From assembly GCF_014203355.1 (NCBI RefSeq), contig NZ_JACHIR010000003.1:62001-126000 (forward strand): a DNA stretch of 64,000 bases, given 5' to 3'. The notes beneath the pieces are model-generated. The model was not told where the DNA came from, ran no database searches, and was given only the letters and a program-made list of their open reading frames with translations. Shown one piece after another: positions 1 through 12,542 of this stretch. The stretch's first letter is position 1. Every line of letters starts with the position of its first letter. The stretch comes from Kutzneria kofuensis (GTDB lineage Bacteria > Actinomycetota > Actinomycetes > Mycobacteriales > Pseudonocardiaceae). The position numbers and the translations under genes are program-made.

Positions 1-440
1 GTCACGTCGGGACGGTCGGCCAACCACTGCGCCGCGGCGTCCAGGAACCGGTCCGCCAGCAGCACTCCCGCGTCGGCGTCGAGCACGCCGACCGTGCCGG
101 CCGGGAACCGCACGTGCGGCAGCTTCTCCGGCTCGACGACCGTCAGCGAGCCGGCTCCGGTTCGCGGCCACGCCGTGACGATGCCGACCTGTCGGAAGAA
201 CCTCGTGCCCAGCAACGACTCCAGCGCCAGCCACCTTCGGCGGGAGTCGGCCATCCGAGCCGTCAGGACCGGATCGCCGGGCCTTTGCACCCGCAGCGCC
301 CGGTGCTGGTCGGCCGACGTGGACGCCGGGTTGGGGATCGGGCCGCGATCGAGCAGCGTCACGCGGTGTCCCGCCCGCGCGCACTCGATCGCCGTCACCA
401 TCCCCGTGACCCCGGCGCCGACGACGATGATCGTGGACAT
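1..440 (-). CDS. FAD-dependent amine/glycine-oxidase-like oxidoreductase (partial, C-terminus outside window)
   Basis: Only the first ~146 residues are present; the reading frame runs off the left edge with no stop. The protein opens with an FAD-binding Rossmann motif (VVGAGVTGMVTA, about residues 6-17), then an acidic residue ending the second strand (TLLDRG), as in the DAO/glycine oxidase family. Its ATG shares one base with the TGA of the MetRS-like gene (TGATG), so the two are translationally coupled. In known hydrazine pathways an FAD oxidase of this type cleaves N6-(carboxymethylamino)lysine to release hydrazinoacetic acid. I infer the same role here from position and fold class; the substrate is not shown by the sequence. 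Confidence 0.75.
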   Translation of the reverse strand, partial: MSTIIVVGAGVTGMVTAIECARAGHRVTLLDRGPIPNPASTSADQHRALRVQRPGDPVLTARMADSRRRWLALESLLGTRFFRQVGIVTAWPRTGAGSLTVVEPEKLPHVRFPAGTVGVLDADAGVLLADRFLDAAAQWLADRPDV

Positions 441-1981
441 CAGGCGCCGGCCCCGGTGAGGCGGGGCAGGGGAGCGGGCGTGATCGTCACGGCGTCCGGG
501 CGGGCCGGGATCGACGTGTCCGGCAACGCGGCCGCCGCCAGGTCGATCAACACCGGCGCGGCGCAGCGGAGGAACACGTCCACCTCGTGACACAGATCGC
601 CGGCGTTGTCCCTGGTCACCCCTGCGGCCATCTGGTCCAACCGCGCCAACTGCTCGGCCATGGTCGACGCCACGGCCGTGAGGCTGAAGCGCCGCACCCC
701 ATAGCCGGCGGCGAAGCGGTCGACCATCCGCTGCGCGGACCGCCGCGACCGCTCGGACACCGGCAACGCGCCCCGCCCCACCCAGGCGTCGACCGCCGCC
801 GCAACCCGGTTCCAGGGCCGGACCAGCCGCGTGTCGGTGACCCGAACCAGTGCCTCGCGGGTGAAGTCGGTGCGCTGGAACTCCGGGCTGGTCGCGGACA
901 GGTGGAACCGGATGAGGTCCCGCGGCACCTCCGCCGCCAGCTCCCGCCCCGACACCACATGTCCCCGGCTGGTGGAGAACTTCTCGTTCGCCAGCTCGTA
1001 GAAGTCGTTGGTGATGTACTGCGCCGGCACCACGTGCTCGCCCAGCGCGGTCAACATCGCCGTGCCCACGACCGCGAACGGATAGGTGGCGTCCAGGCCG
1101 GTGAAGTAGACGACGGTCGTGCCGGAGTCCTTGCGCCACAACTCGTCGTCGGAGGTCAGCACCGCGCCCCGCCGCTCGGCCGCCAGCGCAGTGGTGAACA
1201 TGCTCCACGGCATGCCCTCCATGTGCGGATAGATCACTTGCCCCGGCACCTCCGGGAACGGCGCCGGGATGCCCCACGAGGTCGGCTGTGTGATGGGGAA
1301 GTCGGGCAGCGGCCCGGCCATCACGTCCTCGATCATCTGCGCCATGTGCGGGCGCATGGTCGTCCCGGCGAAGTACGCCTCCAACTCGGCCCGGTACTCC
1401 TCGACCGGGAACACCAGGATCTCCGCCTCGCGGGTCTCCAGCGGCTCGTCCGGGTACAGCGTCGACCGCGGGTCGAGCAGGTCCCCGGGGGCGACCGGCA
1501 ACCCGCAGCTCTCGCAGATGCCGGCGTAGCCCGTGGCCAGGCAGAACGGGCAACCGCCGAGCACGTAGGCGTCCATCAGGTACTCGCCGGTGCTCGGCAG
1601 GTACGGGAAGCGCCAGGTGCGCAGCTTGAGCCGGCCCTGGCTGTGCAGCCGGTCGTAGAAGTCCAGCACCATCTTGGTGAACCGGTCGCCGATGCAGCCG
1701 AAGCCGTCCACCTCGATGCCCATCGCGGCCAGCGTCCGCTCGACCTGCTCGGCGGACCGGACCCGGAGGTGCTCCGGCGACACGCCGAGCTTGCGGGCGG
1801 CGGTGACCACGTAGTTCTGGGTGAAGTGCATGCCCGTGCCGTACAACGCCTCCCGGCCGGTGGCGCGGGCGTAGCGGGTGCACACGTCGGCGGCGAGGAA
1901 CGGGCCCGCCAGGTGACCGACGTGCAGGTCCCCGTTCGCGGTGGGCGCCGGTGAGATGATCACCAGCCGGTCGCTGGCCAT
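440..1981 (-). CDS. MetRS-like ligase, probable amino-acid-activating half of a split hydrazine synthetase
   Basis: This 513-residue class I aminoacyl-tRNA-synthetase-like protein has HVGH at residues 20-23, a zinc knuckle with Cys144, Cys147, Cys156 and Cys159, and a KMSKS-like KFSTS at 334-338. The C-terminal helical part is short. It sits directly after a lysine N-hydroxylase gene, sharing one base of its start (TGATG). In the hydrazine synthetases of s56-p1-type pathways a MetRS-like domain activates an amino acid such as glycine and esterifies N6-hydroxylysine, and a fused cupin domain rearranges the ester to an N-N bond. The cupin is absent here, but a separate cupin gene lies at 4435-4842. 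A housekeeping MetRS is unlikely because of the neighbours and the reduced C-terminus. Confidence 0.82.
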   Translation of the reverse strand: MASDRLVIISPAPTANGDLHVGHLAGPFLAADVCTRYARATGREALYGTGMHFTQNYVVTAARKLGVSPEHLRVRSAEQVERTLAAMGIEVDGFGCIGDRFTKMVLDFYDRLHSQGRLKLRTWRFPYLPSTGEYLMDAYVLGGCPFCLATGYAGICESCGLPVAPGDLLDPRSTLYPDEPLETREAEILVFPVEEYRAELEAYFAGTTMRPHMAQMIEDVMAGPLPDFPITQPTSWGIPAPFPEVPGQVIYPHMEGMPWSMFTTALAAERRGAVLTSDDELWRKDSGTTVVYFTGLDATYPFAVVGTAMLTALGEHVVPAQYITNDFYELANEKFSTSRGHVVSGRELAAEVPRDLIRFHLSATSPEFQRTDFTREALVRVTDTRLVRPWNRVAAAVDAWVGRGALPVSERSRRSAQRMVDRFAAGYGVRRFSLTAVASTMAEQLARLDQMAAGVTRDNAGDLCHEVDVFLRCAAPVLIDLAAAALPDTSIPARPDAVTITPAPLPRLTGAGA

Positions 1982-3255
1982 CAGGCGCTCCTCAGTTCGC
2001 CCCGCCGGGCCAGCAGGTCGTTGACGATGTCCTGGGACCGGTGGGCGAGCACGCTGATCAGCGAGTCGGCGATGCCGTGCGTGGCCTCGTTGACGCCCTG
2101 CAGGTACATCGCGCCCCAGGTGGAGTCGCCGAGGTCGACCCGGTAGCAGCGGCTGACGGAGACCTCGTCCAGCCCGACCCGGTCGGCGAGATCCCGGACC
2201 ATGGCCGGCATCCGTTGGTCGTATCCGGTGCCCAGCAGCACGATGTCGCAGCGCAGCGGCTCCACCTTGCCGCTGGTGCGGTCCCGGAGGTCCAGCACCA
2301 CCTCGTCGTCCTCGACGCGGGCGCCGACCACCTCGGTCAGCGGGCGCACCCGGGACCGCTCCTGGCCGACCCCCCGCTGCTGGTACAGCATCGTGTACAG
2401 CTGCTCAAGGAACGGCGGCGCCAGGCCGGCGTAGTTGGTCAGGTGCATCTCGTCGAGCAGCTGCCGGCGCACCTCCGGCGGGCTGTCGTAGAAGACGTCC
2501 ACAAAGGACGGGAAGAACAGCTCGTTGACGAACTTGCTGGTCTGGTAGTTCTGCAGGCCGATCGAGCGGACCACCATGGTCAGCTCGCTGTTGGGCAGGT
2601 TCTGGTGCAGCGCCATGAACATCTCGGCCGCGCTCTGCGCGCCGCCGACCACCACCGCCCGCAGCGGCGCGTCCGGTGGTAACTCAGCGATTCTGGTCCG
2701 GTACTGAGCGCTGTGGACGACCCGGTCGGCCGGCAGGTCGGCGAACACCCCCGGGATGTGCCGGTCCCGGCCGCCGCCGACCACGAGATCGCGGCAGCGG
2801 ATGGTGTCGCCGCCGTGCAGCGTGACCTTCCAGCCGGTGATGGAGCCGTCGTCGGCGCGGGTCGGCTCGATGCACTGGGCCTTGGCGTTGAAGCGGATTC
2901 TGACTCGGTCCAGCGACCGGGCCACCCACTGCAGGTAGTCGGAGATCTCCCAGCGGAACGGGTTGAAGGTGCCCAGGTTCACGAACTCGTCCAGCCGGCC
3001 GGAGTCGTGCAGGAAGTTCAGGAAGGAGAACTTGCTGCGCGGGTTGCGCAGCGTCACCAGGTCCTTGAGGAAGGACACCTGGCTGCGCGCCCACGGCATC
3101 AGCAGGTCGCGCTGCCACTTGATGTCCGGGCTCTGGTCCAGCAGCAGCGTCTCGTCGGCCAGTGCGTCCGAACCGGACTCCTCGATGGCCACCGCGAGCG
3201 CCAGGTTCGCCGGCCCCGCCCCGATCGCAAGCAAGCCCACCTCTTGGTCAGTCAC
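1981..3255 (-). CDS. L-lysine N6-monooxygenase (SidA/IucD/PvdA family)
   Basis: The 424-residue flavoprotein has an FAD motif at residues 12-17 (GAGPAN), an NADPH-binding segment (VVVGGAQSAAE, about residue 200) and the family's LLGTGYD motif (about 345), which replaces the usual ATGY. This family hydroxylates the side-chain amine of lysine or ornithine using FAD, NADPH and O2. Lysine is inferred from the MetRS-like/FAD-oxidase neighbours, which match the hydrazine pathway and not a siderophore cluster; no NRPS or IucA/C synthetase is in view. The start is GTG with GAGGTG seven bases upstream. It is the first gene of the leftward operon, whose promoter carries the inverted repeat at 3388-3407. 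Confidence 0.88.
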   Translation of the reverse strand: MTDQEVGLLAIGAGPANLALAVAIEESGSDALADETLLLDQSPDIKWQRDLLMPWARSQVSFLKDLVTLRNPRSKFSFLNFLHDSGRLDEFVNLGTFNPFRWEISDYLQWVARSLDRVRIRFNAKAQCIEPTRADDGSITGWKVTLHGGDTIRCRDLVVGGGRDRHIPGVFADLPADRVVHSAQYRTRIAELPPDAPLRAVVVGGAQSAAEMFMALHQNLPNSELTMVVRSIGLQNYQTSKFVNELFFPSFVDVFYDSPPEVRRQLLDEMHLTNYAGLAPPFLEQLYTMLYQQRGVGQERSRVRPLTEVVGARVEDDEVVLDLRDRTSGKVEPLRCDIVLLGTGYDQRMPAMVRDLADRVGLDEVSVSRCYRVDLGDSTWGAMYLQGVNEATHGIADSLISVLAHRSQDIVNDLLARRGELRSA

Positions 3256-3371
3256 AGATGCACCTCGTTCATCGTGATCGATTCGCCCGCCCGGCCGGCG
3301 GCCCGGGGCGGTGATGGGTGAAACGCGTGACGTGGTCCCATGTGTCGAGCGAGTGACCAGCTCGTGACCCG

Positions 3372-3407
3372 ATGCTATGGTCGGGCCCTTCCCGGTTGGT
3401 AGGGAAG
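3372..3407 (-). promoter_or_regulatory. Promoter/operator of the leftward hydrazine operon
   Basis: On the minus strand an inverted repeat CTTCCC-N8-GGGAAG (3388-3407) is followed after exactly 10 nt by TAGCAT (3377-3372), a plausible -10 box. The same arrangement occurs upstream of the cupin gene at 4358-4394. The repeat would overlap the -35 position, as is usual for an activator of the LuxR/NarL type. The regulator encoded at 3594-4316 is the obvious candidate. The leader to the GTG at 3255 is about 110 nt. Confidence 0.55.
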
Positions 3408-3593
3408 CTTTGCCCTTCTGTCGGGGAATCTGCCGCCCTCGGCGTGCTTTCAGCGGTATCCAGTACGCGCTTTGGCCGGATCAAGCCCCTGGTCTTTGGC
3501 GTCTCAACTAACGTTGTGTGGTTGCGGTTCGCTAGCTTGACAACCCGAGACAGGCGGGCGCTGGGGGGAGCCTGTGGACGTTTGGGGGACGAC

Positions 3594-4316
3594 ATGACTC
3601 ACCCAGCACAGATCGAGGGCTTGTTCGCCGGCAGACAGAGCGCGACCATCGAGGCCGCCCGCGGCCCCCGGGTGACGGTCCTGCTGGCCGATGCCCATCC
3701 CGTGGCCCGCCGCCGTGTCCGGTCCACGTTGGAGCGGGCCGGTGGCTTCGTTATCGTCGGCGAGGCCACCACCGCCGCCGAGACGTTCGCCGAGACGGCG
3801 TGGCACCGGCCGGACGTGCTGGTGGTGGACCCGCACGAGTTCGGCCATCTCGATGTGGCCGACATGATCGGTCACGTGTTCCGGATCGCCCCGGGCACAA
3901 GGGTTCTGGTGGTCACGTCGGTGGACGACGACGCGTCGGTGCGGTCGGCGTTGCACGCCGGCGCGCGGGGTTACCTGGTCGCCGCGGACGCCGATGCCGA
4001 TCAGGTGCTGCGCGGTGTGCAGGTGGTGGCCAACGGCGAGGTGATCGTCGGGCGGTCCGTCGCGGGTCGGCTGCCGGCGCTGTTCGGCCCGCTGGGCGGG
4101 CACGTGCCGTATCCGTTCCCGCAGTTGACCGCGCGGGAACAGCAGGTGCTGGAACGGATCGCGGCCGGCAAGTCGAATCTGGCGATCGCGCGTGACCTCG
4201 CGCTGGCGCCGAAGACGATCAGCAACCGGGTGTCCGCGGTGCTGGGCAAGCTGGGCGTCACCGATCGCGCGCAGGCCATCGTGTTGGCCCGGGACGCGGG
4301 ACTGGGACGCGGCTGA
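3594..4316 (+). CDS. Atypical NarL/LuxR-type response regulator
   Basis: The 240-residue protein has an N-terminal receiver domain (about 26-150) and a C-terminal LuxR HTH (about 177-236, with LTAREQQVLERIAAGKSN). The phosphoacceptor Asp79 and acidic Asp33 are present, as is Thr108, but the conserved receiver Lys is replaced (GYLVA, Ala130), so phosphorylation-dependent switching may be altered. No histidine kinase gene is nearby. I take the ATG at 3594, preceded by TTTGGGGGAC, rather than longer in-frame extensions. It lies between the two divergent hydrazine operons and is the natural candidate to bind their shared inverted repeat. The 338-base gap before it (3256-3593) holds the leftward operon promoter; I see no convincing promoter for this gene itself. 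Confidence 0.85.
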   Translation: MTHPAQIEGLFAGRQSATIEAARGPRVTVLLADAHPVARRRVRSTLERAGGFVIVGEATTAAETFAETAWHRPDVLVVDPHEFGHLDVADMIGHVFRIAPGTRVLVVTSVDDDASVRSALHAGARGYLVAADADADQVLRGVQVVANGEVIVGRSVAGRLPALFGPLGGHVPYPFPQLTAREQQVLERIAAGKSNLAIARDLALAPKTISNRVSAVLGKLGVTDRAQAIVLARDAGLGRG

Positions 4317-4337
4317 CCCTGTTGGCGGGCAAGGGAT

Positions 4338-4394
4338 TTCCCGGGAGCACGGGACAACTTCCCCTACCGTGAGGGAAAGCTCCGACATTAGCCT
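4338..4394 (+). promoter_or_regulatory. Promoter/operator of the cupin operon, matching the leftward operon promoter
   Basis: TTCCC-N9-GGGAA (4359-4377) is followed, 10 nt after GGGAAA, by TAGCCT (4389-4394). This repeats the layout at 3372-3407: CTTCCC, TACC, GGGAAR, 10 nt, TAGCMT, CGG. A weaker half-conserved copy (TTCCC-N8-GGGAC) lies just upstream at 4338-4355. The match suggests one regulator switches both operons together. The leader to the GTG at 4435 is about 40 nt. Confidence 0.55.
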
Positions 4395-4434
4395 CGGTCG
4401 CAGTCAACAGGATCCGGCTGATCGGAGTGGGGAC

Positions 4435-4842
4435 GTGACCGACCAAGAGCCCGTGGCCGTGGACTTCCGCCGACTGGAGCACGAGAACCTGGTCCGTGCC
4501 TATGGACTGGAGATGAAGCTGCTCTACCCGTGGGACGGCCTGACGGCCCCGTTCGAGGGCGCGTGGTGCGTGCTGCGGCCGGGCGACACGTCGGTGACGC
4601 ACGCCCACCACGAGCACGAGATCTTCATCGGGATGACGGGCCGGGCCGAGGTGGTCACGCCCGACGAGCGCTACGAGTTCAACGCCGGGGACATCGCGTT
4701 CCTGCGGCCCGGCATCGAGCACCATCTGACCAACACCAGCGACGGGGACTTCGCCTACTACGCGATCTGGTGGGACCGGGCGATGTCCGAGGGGTTCGTC
4801 AAGCAGGAGGAGGAGCGGGCCGCCGCCGGTGGTCGACAGTGA
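4435..4842 (+). CDS. Stand-alone cupin, probable N-N-bond-forming half of a split hydrazine synthetase
   Basis: The 135-residue single-domain cupin has motif 1 with His56, His58, His59, His61 and Glu62 (HAHHEHE) and motif 2 GDIAFLRPGIEHHLTN (85-100) with His96/His97. The metal site is therefore intact. In characterised hydrazine synthetases a zinc-binding cupin domain is fused to a MetRS-like domain and rearranges the N6-hydroxylysine-amino acid ester to a hydrazine. Here the MetRS-like gene has no cupin and this gene supplies one, under a matching promoter. I chose the GTG at 4435, preceded by GGAGTGGGGAC; the open frame extends further upstream but reads into the promoter. A generic cupin with another role remains possible. 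Confidence 0.72.
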   Translation: MTDQEPVAVDFRRLEHENLVRAYGLEMKLLYPWDGLTAPFEGAWCVLRPGDTSVTHAHHEHEIFIGMTGRAEVVTPDERYEFNAGDIAFLRPGIEHHLTNTSDGDFAYYAIWWDRAMSEGFVKQEEERAAAGGRQ

Positions 4843-5171
4843 TCGACTACAACGGCCGCCGGTTCCGCAAGGAGGGCGCCGGCGACGCGCCGGTGGCGGT
4901 GTACCGGCAGCGGGGCGATGTCGTGTGGACGGAGGTGTCCGGCGGCCCGGTGCTGCGTTGTTCTGTCACGGGATTGAGTGATCGCGACGGCACCCTCCAC
5001 ATGGGATACACGATCGTGCTCGACTCCGGGGACGTGATCTGCGGCCGTACCGTGAACACGCCGGAGGTCGCCGACGACGGCCGGATCCGGCTGTGCGAGC
5101 AGTGGGAGCGCTACGGCCCGCACGCCGCCACCGGCACGTCCTACCTCGAAGAGGTGAGGGATCTCAGATGA
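4839..5171 (+). CDS. Small conserved protein of unknown function
   Basis: The 110-residue protein starts at GTG overlapping the cupin stop (GTGA) and ends overlapping the next ATG (ATGA), so it is embedded in the operon. It is mostly beta-rich by eye, with a recurring DYNGRRF start and a C-terminal WERYGPHAATGTSYLEEV segment. Proteins of this shape are often named N-acetylglutamate synthase in annotations, but I see no GNAT acetyl-CoA motif and do not endorse that name. Tight coupling to the cupin suggests a role in the same pathway. Confidence 0.7.
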   Translation: MIDYNGRRFRKEGAGDAPVAVYRQRGDVVWTEVSGGPVLRCSVTGLSDRDGTLHMGYTIVLDSGDVICGRTVNTPEVADDGRIRLCEQWERYGPHAATGTSYLEEVRDLR

Positions 5172-6541
5172 AGTCACCGTCCGAAGAGGACTGGCGACGC
5201 CTCGGCCGGGCGGTTTCCGGCCGGGTGCTGCGCCCCGGGGACGTCGGCTTCGGTCCGGCGAGCACGCCGTTCAACCGGCGGTTCGCCGGGACCGTGCCGG
5301 CCGGCGTGGTGTCCGTCGCCGACACCGTCGACGTGCAGCGGGCCGTTGTGTGGGCGCGGGAGCTGGGCGTCGGTGTTTCGGTGCGGGGCGGCGGGCACAG
5401 CTACGCCGGCTATTCGGTCGGCTCGGGGCTCGTGATCGACATGGGCGGGTTGAGCACCGTGACCGCCAACGGTTCCACCGGGTTGGTGACGGCTGGCGGC
5501 GGCGCGTCCATGGCCAACGTGTACGCCGCCATCGAACCGTGTGAGATGGCGTTCGCGCTCGGCAACGGGGCAACGGTCGGCATTGGTGGTCTCACGCTCG
5601 GGGGCGGTTACGGCGCCACCTCCCGCGTGCACGGCATCACCGCCGACGCGTTGGTGGCGACAACGCTCGTGACCGCCGACGGGGAGGTGCTTCGCTGTGA
5701 CGCCGACGAGAACGCCGACCTGTTCTGGGCGTGTCGCGGCGGTGGCGGCGGCAACTTCGGCGTGAACGTGTCCTTCACGTTCCAGGCCCAGGCGGTCGCC
5801 GACTGCGCGACCTACGTGCTGCTGTGGCGCATCGAGGACGCGGAGAAGGTGTTCTCGGTCGTGCAGGAGACCGTGCGGTCCGCGCCGGACGCGTTCGCGG
5901 CCCGGGTCGGCGTCAGCACCACCGGCTCGGACGCCATCGTGTCGTGCATCGGCCAGCACCTCGGGTCGGCGGCGGAACTGCGGGAGATCCTCGACCCCGT
6001 GCTGTCGGTGGCGCAGCCGTTCCGGGTGGCCATCGACGACCGAACGTACTGGCAGGCCAAGGATGATCTGCTGCACGAGACCTCAGCCGGCGCGTTCGCG
6101 GCCCGGACGAGCGTGTTGAACCGGCCGCTGCCCGATGAGGCCATCAGCGCGATGTTGGCGGCGGTCCGTCGATGGCCCGGCAGTGGCAACCCGGATGGAG
6201 GCGGGGCTGCGCTGTTCTCCTGGGGTGGGGCGGTGAACCGGGTTCCGGTGGCCGGCACCGCCTTCGCCCACCGGGACGCGATGTTCCTGCTGTCCATGGA
6301 CACTTCGTGGGCGGAGGACGACTCCCGTGCGGTCGTGGACGCGAATCTCGGCTGGCTGGGCGAGCTCGCCGACACCATGGCGCCGTACGGCAGCGACCGG
6401 TCGTACCTGAACTTCACCGACCCCGACCTGAAGTCATGGCGGAGCGCTTATTACGGCGTCAACTACGAGCGGCTGTCGGAGATCAAGCAGCGGGTCGACC
6501 CGGACGGCTTCTTCGCCTTCGCTCAGGGGATCGGGTCATGA
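5168..6541 (+). CDS. BBE-like FAD-linked oxidase
   Basis: The 457-residue protein has an FAD-binding type 4 domain (about 35-200) and a C-terminal berberine-bridge-enzyme tail with YYGVNYERLSEIKQRVDP. The covalent FAD histidine is present in GGGHSYAGYS. The second attachment cysteine of bicovalent members is missing (GNGATVGIGG instead of a GxCPTVG segment), so the flavin is probably held by one covalent bond. These enzymes oxidise alcohols, amines or C-C bonds with O2. In a hydrazine pathway it could dehydrogenate a hydrazine to a hydrazone or azo compound; that is inference only. Its ATG overlaps the previous stop, and its stop overlaps the next ATG. Confidence 0.85.
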   Translation: MKSPSEEDWRRLGRAVSGRVLRPGDVGFGPASTPFNRRFAGTVPAGVVSVADTVDVQRAVVWARELGVGVSVRGGGHSYAGYSVGSGLVIDMGGLSTVTANGSTGLVTAGGGASMANVYAAIEPCEMAFALGNGATVGIGGLTLGGGYGATSRVHGITADALVATTLVTADGEVLRCDADENADLFWACRGGGGGNFGVNVSFTFQAQAVADCATYVLLWRIEDAEKVFSVVQETVRSAPDAFAARVGVSTTGSDAIVSCIGQHLGSAAELREILDPVLSVAQPFRVAIDDRTYWQAKDDLLHETSAGAFAARTSVLNRPLPDEAISAMLAAVRRWPGSGNPDGGGAALFSWGGAVNRVPVAGTAFAHRDAMFLLSMDTSWAEDDSRAVVDANLGWLGELADTMAPYGSDRSYLNFTDPDLKSWRSAYYGVNYERLSEIKQRVDPDGFFAFAQGIGS

Positions 6542-7182
6542 CGACGCCGCCGCAGGTCGACGCGCGGGTGCTGTTCTGGTCGGCGGCGGAGGTCGACGCC
6601 GGGGACGTGCCCGATGAGCATCGGCCGTACGTGCAGGAGATCCTGGCGTGGGCGCGGAGGTATCTCGTGTCCCCGCATCCGGAGCTCGGTCGCAACGGAC
6701 CGGTGTGCCCGTACACGCAGCCGTCGCTCCACAAGGGACTGTTCCATCTGGCGGCGTTGTCGGGTGACGGGGACGTCAACGAGGCCGTGGAAAGCCTGCG
6801 TTCTTGGTACGAACGCATCGGCTCGACCATGTCCGGCTCCGACCGTGAGCTGCTGACCGTGCTGCTTGTGTTGCCGCACCTCGACTACACCGACGCCAGC
6901 GGGCTGGACGAACTGCAGCGCGTGGCCAAGGACAAGTTCGTCGAGGACGGGCTGATGATCGGCCAGTTCCACCCGGTGTGCGACGCGCCGGGACTGTGGA
7001 ACCCCGAGTTCAAGGCGCTGCGGGCGCCGGTGCCGCTGCTGGCGATCCGCAAGCTGGTCGTGTTCGACCTGCCGTTCCTGGTGGAGCACCGGGCCCACGC
7101 CGAGAGCTACATCCGCCGCTTCGCCCCGGAGATCCCGCCCCGCATCCGCAAGCAGCTCGCTCAGCGCATGACCGCTCGCTGA
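6538..7182 (+). CDS. DUF6875-like protein of unknown function
   Basis: The 214-residue protein starts in an ATGA overlap with the oxidase gene. The segment HPELGRNGPVCPY (about 47-59) and a later HPVC...GLWNPEF...APVPLLAIRKLV block look like the DUF6875 family as I remember it. I cannot assign a reaction. It has no signal peptide or membrane segment. Two conserved HPxxx..C clusters could hint at metal or thiol chemistry, but this is weak. Its place between a flavin oxidase and a peptidase in one operon ties it to the hydrazine pathway. Confidence 0.65.
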   Translation: MTTPPQVDARVLFWSAAEVDAGDVPDEHRPYVQEILAWARRYLVSPHPELGRNGPVCPYTQPSLHKGLFHLAALSGDGDVNEAVESLRSWYERIGSTMSGSDRELLTVLLVLPHLDYTDASGLDELQRVAKDKFVEDGLMIGQFHPVCDAPGLWNPEFKALRAPVPLLAIRKLVVFDLPFLVEHRAHAESYIRRFAPEIPPRIRKQLAQRMTAR

Positions 7183-7197
7183 GCAACGCTGAGGTGC

Positions 7198-8523
7198 ATG
7201 GACGCTATCGAGGAGTACGTGGCGCGGCACGGCGACCAGCACGAGCGGGAGCTCGCCGCGTGGGTCGCCGCGCCGAGCGTCAGCGCCACCGGCGAGGGCA
7301 TGGCCGAGGCCGCCGATCACGCCCGTGACCTGCTGGTTCGTAGCGGCTTGGCGCCCCGTGTCGTCGAGACCGGGGGATGGCCGCTGGTGGTCGGGCACGG
7401 GACGGGGCCGGCGGGGAGCCCGCACGTGGTGATCTACGGCCACTACGACGTGCAACCGGCCGGGCCGCTGGCGGAGTGGGACAGCCCGCCGTTCGAGGCG
7501 GTGATCCGGGACGGCCGGATGTACGGGCGCGGGACCGGCGACAACAAGGGGCAGCATCTGGCTCAGCTACTGGCGATCAGGGCGTTGCGGGACTGCGAGG
7601 GCGGATTGCCGTGCTCGGTGACGGTGATCCTCGACGGCGAGGAGGAGATCGGCAGCCCGCACCTGGCGTCGACACTCGCCGGGATGCGGAAGGAGCTGAA
7701 CGCCGACGTCGCCCTGTACAGCGACGGCCCGGTCAACGACGGCTACGAGCCAACGGTGTCACTCGGCGTGCGCGGCGTCGTGAGCTTCGAGATTGTCGTG
7801 CGGGGCGCGGGGGCCGTCTTCCACTCCGGTAACTGGGGCAATGTGGCCCCGAATCCGGCCTGGGAACTGGTGTGGCTGCTGGGGACCATGCGCGCGCCGG
7901 ACGGCCGGGTTCTCGTCGAGGGATACGACGACGGCGTTGTCCCGCTCACCGAGGCTGAACTTGCGTGTCTGGAAGCGCTGCCGGTCAGCGCGGATGTCGG
8001 CCTTGACCGTTTTGATCTGGCGACGGGTGGAGTGAACGAGCGGTTGGCGATGCCCACGTTCTCCATCAACTCGCTGACCTGCCTGGACAACGACGAGCAT
8101 CGGACCGTCATCCCGGCTGTTGCCGTTGCCCGGTGTGACATGCGGCTGGCGTGTGGGCAGCGGACGTCCACGGTCGTCGACGCCGTCCAGAAGCATGTCG
8201 CGCGGCACCTGCCGCATGCGGAGGTCCGGTTCAAGGCGATGATGGAGCCGTCGCGCACCCTGCCCGACGCGCCGTTCGCGAAGGTCGTGCTCGACGCCGT
8301 CGGAGCGGCCGCTGGCCGGCCCGCGTTGTTCGAGCCGGCCATGGGCGGCAGCCTCCCCATCGCCGGCATCACCGACGGCCTCGGGCTGCCGTGCTACGGC
8401 ATCCAGCTCGCCAATGTGGATGAGCGCAACCATGCGCCGAACGAGAACTTCGAGCTCCGGCGGTTCCACGCCGGGATCGTGACCGCGGCGAGGGTGCTGC
8501 AGGGGATAGGCCGCAGTGAGTGA
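7198..8523 (+). CDS. M20-family dipeptidase/amidohydrolase
   Basis: The 441-residue zinc peptidase of the ArgE/DapE/carnosinase type carries metal-site residues in GHYDVQP (His82, Asp84), GTGDNKG (Asp115) and GEEEIGSP (Glu148-150). The lid/dimerisation domain fits the middle third, and a late NEN...H segment is present. It lies 15 bases after the DUF6875-like gene and ends the operon. M20 enzymes cleave dipeptides or N-acyl amino acids. Here it could release a peptide-protected intermediate or a dipeptide-like hydrazine product, which is inferred from position only. Downstream is the palindromic repeat at 8593-8702, which may also serve as terminator. Confidence 0.85.
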   Translation: MDAIEEYVARHGDQHERELAAWVAAPSVSATGEGMAEAADHARDLLVRSGLAPRVVETGGWPLVVGHGTGPAGSPHVVIYGHYDVQPAGPLAEWDSPPFEAVIRDGRMYGRGTGDNKGQHLAQLLAIRALRDCEGGLPCSVTVILDGEEEIGSPHLASTLAGMRKELNADVALYSDGPVNDGYEPTVSLGVRGVVSFEIVVRGAGAVFHSGNWGNVAPNPAWELVWLLGTMRAPDGRVLVEGYDDGVVPLTEAELACLEALPVSADVGLDRFDLATGGVNERLAMPTFSINSLTCLDNDEHRTVIPAVAVARCDMRLACGQRTSTVVDAVQKHVARHLPHAEVRFKAMMEPSRTLPDAPFAKVVLDAVGAAAGRPALFEPAMGGSLPIAGITDGLGLPCYGIQLANVDERNHAPNENFELRRFHAGIVTAARVLQGIGRSE

Positions 8524-8592
8524 GTCGCGAAATCCCGGTGGCGCCGTGCATTTTTGGTTGGTGGTGGCGGGGTTCGGGGTGTTGGGTGGACC

Positions 8593-8702
8593 GATTTTGT
8601 GTGGAGCCTCTGGACGATGGCCTACGAGGGGCAATTCCGGGGCAGGCTTCGCCTGCCCCTCGCGCGGAGAGCTTAGGCCATCGTCCACCTCCACACAAAA
8701 TC
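8593..8702. repeat. 110-bp palindromic repeat, copy 1
   Basis: The element begins GATTTTGTGTGGAG and ends CTCCACACAAAATC, with TGGACGATGGCCTA repeated in inverse near the right end and a central GGGGCAGGC-TTC-GCCTGCCCC hairpin. It is thus a long imperfect palindrome able to fold into one extended stem. The reverse complement matches the copy at 10030-10139 at 109 of 110 positions. The only difference is CGTAGG versus CGGAGG, read on the copy 2 strand. It sits in the 251-base gap between the M20 gene and the HNH gene. I see no target duplication. Confidence 0.9.
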
Positions 8703-8774: not shown

Positions 8775-9917
8775 TCAGTATTCGAAGGGGTGGGTCGCGT
8801 AATGGCGGCCGGTCGGGGTGGTCCAGTGTGAGGTGCCGTTAGGGTCCCTGGTCACGGTGTAGTTGTCGTGTTTGCGGTGGTGGTGCCACCGGCAGAGGCC
8901 CTGGAGATTGGCGGGTTCGGTGTTGCCGGTTGGCCAGGGGGTGATGTGGTCGTATTCCTGAATGGGGCTGGCGCAACCCGGGGCAGTACAAGTCCCGCCG
9001 GCGGACACGTGGGCGAATTCCTTCATCAACGCGGTGGGGCGGTAGGTGTCGGTGGTGATGGCGGTGGCGTGGCGGTACTCGTCGAGCAGGATGCCGCGCC
9101 AGGGGCCGTGCATAGCTAGCTCCCGGGCGGCGTCGGCGGCGATGGGGCCGTAGCCGGCGAGGTGGCCGGGGTCGTTGGTCAGGCCCAGCAACGTCTCCAT
9201 CGAGAGGGTGACGAAGGTCCGCACGTTCCAGTCGCGCTTGGTCCCCCGTAGGCGGTCCAGCAGGGCATCGGAGCGTTTCTGGTCGGTGGTGCGGTCGTCG
9301 GTGGGGAGGGCTTTGGCGTCTTTGCAGAGTTGTTGGAACACGAGGTGGGCTTCGGTGGCGGGCAGGATCCAGGTCAGTTTGGCCATCCCGTCGGGGAGTG
9401 GGGCGAACTCGACCCGGCGGTCCTTGGTGGCCTTGTGGCAGCGCTGCTCGTAGCCGTCGGGGTCGGCCTGGGCGACCAGGGCGGTGGTCTTGCGGCACAG
9501 CTGGGTCCGGTTCAACCCAGCAGCGACCTCGACCAGTGCATCCTCAACCTCGGTGACCAGGTCGGGGGACAGGTGTTGGACCCGTTCCCGCACGGCGTCG
9601 AGCCGGCGGAAGTCCAACTCGCCGCGCCGCAACTGCTCGGCCAGCCGGGGCAGCGTCTCCAGGGCTTCGCTGGCTTCTTTCCGCCGGGCCACGATTTGCT
9701 CCGGTTCGGTGAGGGCCATGGCGAGTTCGGTGGGGTCCTCGGTCCGGCGTAGTGCGGCCAGTTCGACCCATTCGCAGGCGGACTTCAGTTTGCGGGCGAG
9801 GATGGACACCGTCACCAACTGGTCGGCGTCCAGTCTCGCCCATTCCACACCCATGATCAGGTCGAACAGGTCGCCACTAGGCTCCCTGGTCTCCATTTCG
9901 CGGGTGAGTTCTTCCAT
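8775..9917 (-). CDS. DUF222 / HNH endonuclease protein (13E12-repeat type)
   Basis: The 380-residue protein has an N-terminal alpha-helical DUF222 region (about 20-290) and a C-terminal HNH nuclease domain: CTAPGC (two Cys), EYDHITPW, then NLQGLCRWHHHRKH. This is the architecture of the 13E12 repeat family of mycobacteria and other actinomycetes, whose biological role is not established. The nuclease residues (His of DHI, Asn of NLQ, His of HHH) look intact. The gene is flanked by inverted copies of a 110-bp palindrome, 72 bp downstream of its stop and 112 bp upstream of its start. That suggests an element whose spread may be linked to the nuclease. Confidence 0.88.
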   Translation of the reverse strand: MEELTREMETREPSGDLFDLIMGVEWARLDADQLVTVSILARKLKSACEWVELAALRRTEDPTELAMALTEPEQIVARRKEASEALETLPRLAEQLRRGELDFRRLDAVRERVQHLSPDLVTEVEDALVEVAAGLNRTQLCRKTTALVAQADPDGYEQRCHKATKDRRVEFAPLPDGMAKLTWILPATEAHLVFQQLCKDAKALPTDDRTTDQKRSDALLDRLRGTKRDWNVRTFVTLSMETLLGLTNDPGHLAGYGPIAADAARELAMHGPWRGILLDEYRHATAITTDTYRPTALMKEFAHVSAGGTCTAPGCASPIQEYDHITPWPTGNTEPANLQGLCRWHHHRKHDNYTVTRDPNGTSHWTTPTGRHYATHPFEY

Positions 9918-10029
9918 GTGTCCAGAATACTCGCACGCATGATCGAACTCGAATCACTAATGGGTGAACCTTTTCATGCATAATTACGCCGGCTGCCACC
10001 CCACCGTCGACACCGAACACCTGAGCGTG

Positions 10030-10139
10030 GATTTTGTGTGGAGGTGGACGATGGCCTAAGCTCTCCGCGCGAGGGGCAGGCGAAGCCTGCCCCGGAATTG
10101 CCCCTCGGAGGCCATCGTCCAGAGGCTCCACACAAAATC
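10030..10139. repeat. 110-bp palindromic repeat, copy 2 (inverted relative to copy 1)
   Basis: This copy is the reverse complement of 8593-8702 with a single mismatch. The terminal inverted repeat is longer here because the flanks pair too: GCGTGGATTTTGTGTGG (10025-10041) against its complement (10128-10144). It lies in the 318-base gap between the HNH start and the molybdopterin oxidoreductase; the rest of that gap shows nothing else I can name. Near-identity of the copies implies recent duplication or ongoing gene conversion. Confidence 0.9.
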
Positions 10140-10235
10140 CACGCGACCCAACACGCGCAAACCCAACGCCATCCTCGGCCCGAAAAACCCCACCACCCTT
10201 GACAACCTGGGTCTTGTTACGAAACCCTGCTGGGT

Positions 10236-12542
10236 ATGAGCACCTGGCACAAGACCGCCTGCAGCCTCTGCTACGTCAACTGTGGCATCGAGGTGCTCAC
10301 CGACGGCCGGGCGATCATTCGCGTCCGTGGCGACCGGGACAACCCCCGCTCCCAGGGCTACCTGTGCCAGAAGGCGCAGCGGCTCACCTGGTACGGCGAC
10401 CACGACGACCGGCTCACCACCCCGCTGCGCCGCCGTCCGGACGGCACGCACGAGGCGATCAGCTGGGACACCGCCCTCACCGAGATCGCCGCCAAGCTGA
10501 AAGCCGTCAAACGAGAAGACGAGCGGGCAAACCGCCCGGGTTCGATGGCCTACGTGGGCGGTGGCGGCCAGGGCAACCACTCCGGCGGCGGCTACGGCTT
10601 CGCCCTGCGCCGCTGGATGAACTCGCCGCGCTTCTTCGGCGCCCTCTCCCAGGAGAAGACCGGTGACTTCTGGGTCAACGGCAAGATGTTCGGCGGCCAG
10701 ACCAACCACACCGCCGAGGGCATCGACGAATGCGACCTGCTGCTGGTCATCGGCTGCAACCCGTGGCTGGCCAACGGTTTCACCCGCGCCCGCAGCGCCG
10801 TCAACGACATCAGGAACGATCCCGACCGCAAGATGATCGTCATCGACCCGCGCCGGACCGAGACCGCCGACATCGCCGACGTGCACCTGCCGCTGCGCCC
10901 CGGCACCGACGCCTACCTCCTCGGCGCGATCCTCGCCCTCATCATCGAACGCGGCGGCCAGGACGCCGACTTCCTCGACGCGCACACCGAAGGCTTCGCC
11001 GAAGTAGCGGCCACTCTCGGCAAGATCCCCGTCGACGACTGGATCGCCCACGCCGAGGTCGACCGTGAAGACGTCGACCACGCCGTCGACCTGATCCTCG
11101 CCGCGAACGCGATGTCGGTCCGCGTCGAGTTGGGCATCCAGCAGGGCCGCAACTCCACGCTCAACAGCTACCTCGAAAAGCTCCTGTACCTGATCACCGG
11201 CAACTTCGGCCGGCCCGGCACGAACGCCCTGCACACCTGGCTGATGCCGCTGTGGGGCGAGTCCCGTGGCGAACGCTCGGAGATCACCGGCTTCGAGTAC
11301 ATCGGCGGCATGCTGCCGCTGAACACGCTGGCCGAGGAGATCCTCGCCGACCACCCGAACCGCGCCCGGGTGCTGTGGGTGGAGTCCTCCAACCCGGCCA
11401 ACACCGCCGCCGACACGCTGGGCATGGAGCGGGCGATCCGCGCCGCCGAACTGTCCGTCGTCATCGACATCGCCTACACCGAAACCGCCGCGTTGGCCGA
11501 CTACGTGCTTCCGGCGGCGTCGCAGCACGAGAAGTGGGAGTTCACGTTCTTCGACTTCGACTTCCCCACGAACTACTTCCACCTCCGGCCACCGCTGTTC
11601 GAGCCACTCCCGGGCACGCTCGTGGAGGCGGAGATCTACGCCCGGCTGTTCGAGGAACTCGGCGCCATGCCCGAGCAGTCCACAATGGACCAGTTGGCCG
11701 GGACGAACCGCGAGGACCTTCTCAAGGCCGCAGGCCCCGTCCTGCGGGAGAATCCGGCAATCGCCCCGATCCTGCTCTACCGCACGCTCGGCCGAACGCT
11801 GCCGGACCGCGCCGCCCCGGTGGCGATGCTCTGGCCGGGTCTCCTGGCGCTGGCCAAGCGCATGCCCGTTGCCGTGCGACGAGCGTTGGGCTCCAGCCAG
11901 GAAGGCCCGGCGCTGGCGGGGGAGTTGTTCGACCGGATCCTGAACAGCCCGAGCGGAACCGCCTTCACCACGCATGAGTACGACGAGGTCTGGCAGCTCA
12001 TGCGCCACGACCGCGTGCACCTGGCCGTGCCGGAACTCTTGTCCTGGCTGGAAAACCTTGACCCGGCCACCGACCGTCCTGACCTGGACTACCCGCTCTC
12101 GCTGATCAACGGGCAGCGTCGCCGGCACAACGCCAACCAGATCCTGCGCCCGCCGGGCTGGCGTCGCACCGACCCGGACGGCGCGCTGCACGTCCGTACC
12201 GACGACCTGAAGGCCATAGGCGCCAACGAAGGCGACTGGGTGGCGGTCGTCAGCCGCGTGGGCCGGATCGTCGTCCGGGCGGAGATCGACGACTCCCTGC
12301 GCAAGGGGCAGCTGGCGTTGCCGCACGGTTTCGGCATGGCGGTGCCGGACGGCCGCGGCGGCCGGGTCTTGAACGGCCCGAGGATCAACCTGCTCACCGA
12401 CGCGCACGACCGCGACCCCATCGCCGGCACGCCCCACCACAAGGACATGCCCGTACGCCTCGAACCCGCCACCGCCGAGGAGGCGGAGGCGGCGCAGCGG
12501 GACGCCGAACTCGTGCACGCCCTCATCTCCGCCGGCTCCTGA
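10236..12542 (+). CDS. Molybdopterin-dependent oxidoreductase (formate dehydrogenase/nitrate reductase-like)
   Basis: The 768-residue protein begins with a 4Fe-4S motif (CSLCYVNC, with a further Cys in GYLCQK at about residue 46), then the Mo-bis-MGD catalytic domain (about 55-600) and a molybdopterin dinucleotide-binding domain with HGFGMAVPDG near the C-terminus. This is the FdhF/NarB/DMSO-reductase superfamily; the substrate cannot be read from the sequence. It has no Tat signal, so it is cytoplasmic. It stands alone with no electron-transfer or maturation subunits beside it, which is common for this actinobacterial subgroup. The ATG at 10236 follows a weak ribosome site. Confidence 0.88.
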   Translation: MSTWHKTACSLCYVNCGIEVLTDGRAIIRVRGDRDNPRSQGYLCQKAQRLTWYGDHDDRLTTPLRRRPDGTHEAISWDTALTEIAAKLKAVKREDERANRPGSMAYVGGGGQGNHSGGGYGFALRRWMNSPRFFGALSQEKTGDFWVNGKMFGGQTNHTAEGIDECDLLLVIGCNPWLANGFTRARSAVNDIRNDPDRKMIVIDPRRTETADIADVHLPLRPGTDAYLLGAILALIIERGGQDADFLDAHTEGFAEVAATLGKIPVDDWIAHAEVDREDVDHAVDLILAANAMSVRVELGIQQGRNSTLNSYLEKLLYLITGNFGRPGTNALHTWLMPLWGESRGERSEITGFEYIGGMLPLNTLAEEILADHPNRARVLWVESSNPANTAADTLGMERAIRAAELSVVIDIAYTETAALADYVLPAASQHEKWEFTFFDFDFPTNYFHLRPPLFEPLPGTLVEAEIYARLFEELGAMPEQSTMDQLAGTNREDLLKAAGPVLRENPAIAPILLYRTLGRTLPDRAAPVAMLWPGLLALAKRMPVAVRRALGSSQEGPALAGELFDRILNSPSGTAFTTHEYDEVWQLMRHDRVHLAVPELLSWLENLDPATDRPDLDYPLSLINGQRRRHNANQILRPPGWRRTDPDGALHVRTDDLKAIGANEGDWVAVVSRVGRIVVRAEIDDSLRKGQLALPHGFGMAVPDGRGGRVLNGPRINLLTDAHDRDPIAGTPHHKDMPVRLEPATAEEAEAAQRDAELVHALISAGS

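Follow-up and report, generated by a model that had tools for sequence, protein, structure and literature searches.

A 64-kb window (the whole stretch of DNA analysed, G000:C3:62001-126000) of the 10.4-Mb genome of the soil actinobacterium Kutzneria kofuensis holds a locus that very probably encodes a two-protein hydrazine synthetase, in which a standalone ligase resembling methionyl-tRNA synthetase (MetRS) and a separate cupin would act with an N-hydroxylase, oxidases and ATP-grasp ligases to make a small, hydrazine-containing, peptide-like product. Separate ligase and cupin genes are a known arrangement, and the split as such is not new: in 2010 a MetRS paralogue that occurs with a lysine N6-monooxygenase was described in two forms, one fused to a cupin and one with a cupin encoded separately next to it (PMC2922099), Zhao et al. 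2021 reported that the enzymes are sometimes two standalone proteins (PMC8664883), and several split pairs appear in Table 2 of a review (PMC11705231). What is mildly unusual in this branch is a cupin placed in a neighbouring operon combined with an altered ligase pocket. The locus is real, functionally plausible and ordinary in kind, with the clade-specific pocket as the part worth testing.

An original prediction, made from the sequence of the window, proposed a hydrazine-making locus with a split synthetase; the separate ligase and cupin it described are borne out by the sequences, while its novelty is not, as such splits have been in print since 2010. It also saw in the locus a natural test of domain communication, which has largely been done already, because natural gene pairs and the separated halves of the fused synthetase PyrN have been assayed and the halves, like the split system RHS1, work in trans (PMC8664883).

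Family membership of the ligase and the cupin

The genes and coordinates of the original prediction were right: hydroxylase, ligase and flavin adenine dinucleotide (FAD) oxidase lie on the minus strand, and the cupin open reading frame (ORF), which carries the HAHHEHE and GDIAFLRPGIEHH motifs, lies divergently on the plus strand and ends at 4842. Pfam likewise places no cupin domain in the MetRS-like protein and recognises the cupin as a separate, single-domain protein, and the predicted distance of about 1.2 kb corresponds to 1,180 bases between the hydroxylase start (3255) and the cupin start (GTG 4435, conserved). Where the cupin gene usually lies, a single base is shared by the ORFs of the hydroxylase and the ligase, and adjoining ORFs from the hydroxylase through the first ATP-grasp gene of this left operon overlap by 1–4 bases. 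A scan of positions 3200–4500 for promoters, using the sigma-70 consensus only, found none.

Both by sequence and by structural model, the PyrN ligase domain is a closer match to the ligase than any of the true MetRS proteins listed; the housekeeping MetRS is encoded by a different gene, its product being 29% identical to the ligase. The adenylation motifs HVGH and KFSTS and four cysteines are intact. In a single-sequence search of solved structures, the cupin matched 4rd7 (9.3e-34) and Plu4264 (2.4e-27), both cupins of unknown function that align along the whole domain, and the RHS1 cupin only at 0.0012; a 21-member profile raised RHS1 to third place (4.9e-12) and aligned over its site. As far as tested, the cupin is thus closest to these proteins and not to an unrelated cupin family, the outcome that had been named as counting against the prediction. 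Residues H56, H58, E62 and H96 are invariant in all 21 members and in 32/32 cupins of a larger alignment, and fall at the metal-binding and catalytic sites that were probed by mutation in PyrN and RHS1, where the essential glutamates are E56 and E69, respectively (PMC8664883).

The genome also encodes a fused cupin-MetRS, at 8965-10956 of a locus on another contig (L007; G000:C1:8126000-8145000), whose cluster includes a hydroxylase, an AMP-ligase, a GNAT protein and an AAT/C45-type hydrolase, as well as a DAO-like frame, read from translation, between the fused gene and the hydroxylase. The dob hydrazone pathway is described with the same kinds of enzyme (PMC13061610). The existence of such a gene had been set as grounds for rejecting the prediction; that gene does not explain the split locus away, because it belongs to a cluster on a different contig that is equipped with its own hydroxylase, a frame for an FAD oxidase and additional enzymes. 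Fused rows also fall far from the split clade in the ligase tree.

Gene order in relatives and relocation of the cupin

Cupin relatives were collected without requiring a ligase. A survey of 298 genomes of the taxonomic order, including that of K. kofuensis, found 29 matches in 18 genomes, and 24 of the 28 matches outside the K. kofuensis genome were inspected (L026, L032, L036 and L037 were left out). A separate ligase directly followed the cupin on the same strand, with a gap of −4 to +5 bases and the hydroxylase upstream, in 17 of these 24, and the cupin was divergent as in K. kofuensis in five, all of which keep both cupin and ligase. One further match (L057, 6206-7576) combines a cupin and a hydroxylase of this type with a MetRS-like protein that is 30% identical and 2.3 kb from the cupin, possibly a partner swap.

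Named loci were taken from the best 80 of 149 cupin relatives. The ligase lay directly downstream of the cupin in 46 of the 80, with the hydroxylase at most 200 bases upstream in 44 of these and further off in L110 and L128; cupin and ligase were divergent at 2.3–2.7 kb in 16, and the ligase was further away within the locus in two (L070 and L102). Fifteen had no ligase in the stretch examined around the cupin, although 14 of these genomes do encode one (59–70% identical to the K. kofuensis ligase). The last, Frankia L080, looked like a cupin-MetRS fusion from its open frame; a run of N separates two genes there, so it is uninformative. The nearest named loci, in Kutzneria sp. 744 and CA-103260, have cupins 93–94% identical to that of K. 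kofuensis. These genes are found side by side in other genomes too, so their grouping is more than chance.

A plasmid search with the ligase returned 306 records, of which five were inspected (L060 and L062 without annotation). Four, from Pantoea agglomerans, Klebsiella variicola, Deinococcus ficus and Streptomyces sp. BHT-5-2, carry the adjacent trio, and the fifth is the RHS1 locus. Split hydrazine trios are thereby seen on Enterobacterales plasmids, in K. variicola (L061, from human faecal samples) and P. agglomerans (L058, conjugative), with a related one in Deinococcus (L059).

In the ligase tree (90 rows, a quick method with SH-aLRT support only and long outside rows), 32 rows are labelled as relocated, and 30 of them form one clade (SH-aLRT 99) among adjacent-order rows, with L102 and L155 elsewhere; 14 of the 32 labels denote a ligase outside the stretch (flank ≤8 kb) rather than a seen position. 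Given this clustering, the cupin most likely left the ligase operon once, in the ancestor of the clade, going from the customary site between hydroxylase and ligase to the divergent operon. The clade comprises Kutzneria, Amycolatopsis, Saccharothrix, Lentzea and Actinokineospora, together with genomes of Actinacidiphila and Kitasatospora and two Streptomyces loci. No description of it was found in the literature searched, a coverage that excludes most subscription papers.

A clade-specific ligase pocket

Pocket columns 52, 53, 253 and 298 were set by alignment with the housekeeping MetRS. We take D52, W253 and I297 of Escherichia coli MetRS to hold the amino acid, with these four columns at or beside them, and the aspartate at column 52 presumably anchors the substrate amine in MetRS; L13 and I297 are named as engineered positions in the titles of matched PDB entries. 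All 30 rows of the relocated-cupin clade have H52, F or S at 53, H or D at 253, and A or G at 298. The sister rows (n = 24) have Q52, D or E at 53 and N298 throughout and N253 in 22/24, while D52, W253 and N298 occur in all 28 deeper split rows and in 5/5 fused rows (PyrN, Spb40 and Tri28 are not among these). The K. kofuensis ligase also differs at all four columns from L007, whose glycine specificity is read from gene neighbours only.

The replacement of aspartate by H52 in 30/30 clade rows, with changes at 53, 253 and 298, raises the possibility, which we hold tentatively and below even chances, that the relocated clade is a functionally distinct split branch, its ligase activating an amino acid or acyl donor new to the family and its cupin being a diffusing partner supplied from a separate operon. 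Loss of D52 is not unique to the clade, because the partner ligase of RHS1 has A52 (with W53, A253 and N298), and it is no proof of a new substrate by itself, because the RHS1 system, which uses glutamate (PMC8664883), also lacks the aspartate. Nor are pocket remodelling and cupin relocation independent evidence for each other, because they are shared by descent on one branch.

Proposed pathway and alternative explanations

From the gene content, the family membership seen in sequences and models, the conserved metal ligands and the arrangement in relatives, we infer the following reactions, substrates and product. The hydroxylase would convert a diamino acid (lysine or ornithine) to its N-hydroxy form; the ligase would activate a second amino acid with ATP and attach it to the oxygen of the hydroxylamine, which would form an unstable O-aminoacyl ester; and the separate, metal-bound cupin would rearrange this ester to form the N-N bond. 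The DAO-type FAD oxidase, a candidate for oxidative cleavage by analogy with Spb39 and Apy10, probably then cuts the hydrazine on one side. The two ATP-grasp ligases, acyl-CoA-dehydrogenase-like flavoenzyme and exporter of the left operon, together with the BBE oxidase and DUF6875 protein of the right operon, would assemble and export the product.

The hydroxylase substrate may be lysine or ornithine. Its top solved match is the L-ornithine 5-monooxygenase 3s5w (2.5e-78), which we take to be PvdA, followed by the lysine enzyme MbtG (1.5e-67), so that by sequence it stands nearer the ornithine enzyme. Its identity to the hydroxylases encoded at L007 and at the RHS1 locus (L060) is 28–30%, while these two share 40% with each other. 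The product originally proposed, N6-(carboxymethylamino)lysine, is unsupported, as the sequences point to neither lysine nor glycine; it is one guess among several, because lysine, ornithine and diaminobutyrate each serve as substrate in one or other of the related systems, whose FAD oxidases cut on either side (PMC11705231). One relative (L043) has two hydroxylase genes of the same type in a single cluster (969-2255 and 7397-8668), encoding proteins 80% and 74% identical to the K. kofuensis enzyme.

Since the cupin of the relocated clade lies outside the ligase operon, the ligase might go no further than joining its substrate to the hydroxylamine as an amide or ester (yielding a hydroxamate or a siderophore-like compound), the cupin having another role in the divergent operon. 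Hydroxylases of the same family serve siderophores too, a siderophore role was proposed in 2010 for some such operons (PMC2922099), and the PyrN ligase domain without its cupin yields an N-acyl hydroxamate (PMC8664883). We nevertheless consider this improbable, because the catalytic glutamate and metal positions are kept in 32/32 aligned cupins and the cupin adjoins the ligase in the tree rows around the relocated clade. Less likely still in our estimate is that the cupin regulates or senses for the divergent operon while the fused enzyme elsewhere makes the N-N bond: the cupin does adjoin a response regulator in the relocated clade and has a weak AraC_binding match (4.2e-07, Pfam), and the fused cluster exists, but the 135-aa protein consists of one cupin domain and Pfam shows no further domain in it, the fused gene on the other contig has its own hydroxylase, and five divergent relatives retain both cupin and ligase. 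Decay to an inactive locus, suggested by an arrangement that differs from the usual trio, is scarcely credible given open frames, intact ligase motifs and cysteines, and cupin, ligase and hydroxylase kept at 93–96% identity in two other Kutzneria loci.

Several observations weigh against a two-protein hydrazine synthetase. The clade is changed at columns that we take to hold the amino acid in MetRS, and for this reason the ligase substrate could, judging from sequence, be another acyl group, or the reaction could have changed. RHS1 is a distant relative of the cupin in the single-sequence search and is absent among the 50 listed matches of the cupin fold comparison, an absence that we take as evidence neither way. 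A ligase of this type does not always accompany the cupin, because one of the 24 surveyed relatives (L047) has no ligase or hydroxylase in 20 kb and the fifteenth genome without a nearby ligase (L121) has only a 32%-identical one. The fused synthetase could, in principle, share parts with the split locus.

Comparison with known systems

The RHS1 locus on plasmid pRHL1 of Rhodococcus jostii RHA1 (cupin 5UQP; PMC8664883) resembles that of K. kofuensis in having a separate cupin and ligase that are not adjacent (6200-6568 and 8989-10464 of L060) and an N-hydroxylase beside the ligase, and its cupin has the same metal-binding pattern with glutamate, though with aspartate in place of the first histidine. 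In contrast, its ligase and hydroxylase are only 32% and 30% identical, its genes lie on the same strand rather than divergently, and a saccharopine-dehydrogenase-type gene is reported there (PMC8664883, PMC2922099) where Kutzneria has the DAO-type oxidase. The fused synthetases PyrN, Spb40 and Tri28 have the same two activities as those predicted for the K. kofuensis pair, and the modelled Kutzneria ligase fold is nearest that of PyrN, but they are encoded by one gene instead of two on opposite strands. Five other fused enzymes differ in the pocket (D52/W253/N298 in 5/5 versus H52/H253/A298). Ligase and cupin are also fused in the s56-p1 and hydrazinoacetic acid (lysine plus glycine) branch, where Spb40 combines the two and Spb38 serves as hydroxylase (PMC11705231); the original prediction had interchanged these names. 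Albofungin genes Afn8/Afn9/Afn18, compared by description, are likewise separate MetRS-like, cupin and lysine hydroxylase genes, but belong to a polyketide pathway (PMC11705231). The Pantoea (L058) and Deinococcus (L059) plasmid clusters share much of the gene set (hydroxylase, cupin, MetRS, FAD oxidase, MFS, ATP-grasp) in similar order, with the MFS gene of L059 in a neighbouring operon, whereas their cupin gene is placed between those for the hydroxylase and the ligase and overlaps the start of the latter with its end, and their pocket is D52/W253/N298.

Gene content of the locus

The genes of the locus are given in Table 1. A single DUF222 gene (8775-9917) lies a short way downstream of the cluster; it is flanked on both sides by a 110-bp inverted repeat, 99% complementary (8593-8702 and 10030-10139), and resembles a small mobile unit or an insertion between repeats.

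Table 1 Features of the K. kofuensis locus. Minus coordinates refer to contiguous DNA left of the window, the base before the window being 0.
Feature	Position	Strand	Remarks
ATP-grasp protein with L-amino-acid-ligase C-terminal domain	-5583 to -4318	-	Left operon
Acyl-CoA-dehydrogenase-like protein		-	Left operon; listed between the two ATP-grasp genes
ATP-grasp ligase	-3097 to -1802	-	Left operon
Major facilitator superfamily (MFS) transporter	-1805 to -555	-	Left operon
DAO-family FAD oxidase	440 to -558	-	Crosses left edge of window; PF01266, 3.3e-22
Standalone MetRS-like ligase, 513 aa	440-1981	-	HVGH, KFSTS and four zinc-ribbon cysteines intact; pocket H52 F53 H253 A298
SidA/IucD/PvdA-type N-hydroxylase (lysine or ornithine), 424 aa	1981-3255	-	PF13434, 2.7e-86
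Response regulator with LuxR-type helix-turn-helix	3594-4316	+	ATG 3594 likely start; ORF opens at 3372
Standalone cupin, 135 aa	4435-4842	+	Cupin_2, 6.7e-13; putative metal ligands H56 H58 E62 H96
Small conserved protein, 110 aa	4839-5171	+	In many related loci; no family in Pfam scan
Berberine-bridge-type FAD oxidase	5168-6541	+	FAD_binding_4 and BBE
DUF6875 protein	6538-7182	+	Matched in 11/80 loci (L063-L073: Kutzneria, Amycolatopsis, Saccharothrix)
M20 peptidase-family protein	7198-8523	+	Matches (E 1e-8) among the 80 loci only in two Kutzneria loci (L063, L064)

Implications

Kutzneria is known for another N-N chemistry, that of the kutznerides. The locus would represent a so far uncharacterised route to a metabolite with an N-N bond, and the genome contains another hydrazine synthetase, a fused one within a cluster of its own. 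The series of fused, adjacent-overlapping and divergent arrangements, together with the clade-specific pocket, offers ready enzymes with which to probe the choice of amino-acid substrate, and the same series lets one ask whether the unstable ester needs to be handed over within a complex.
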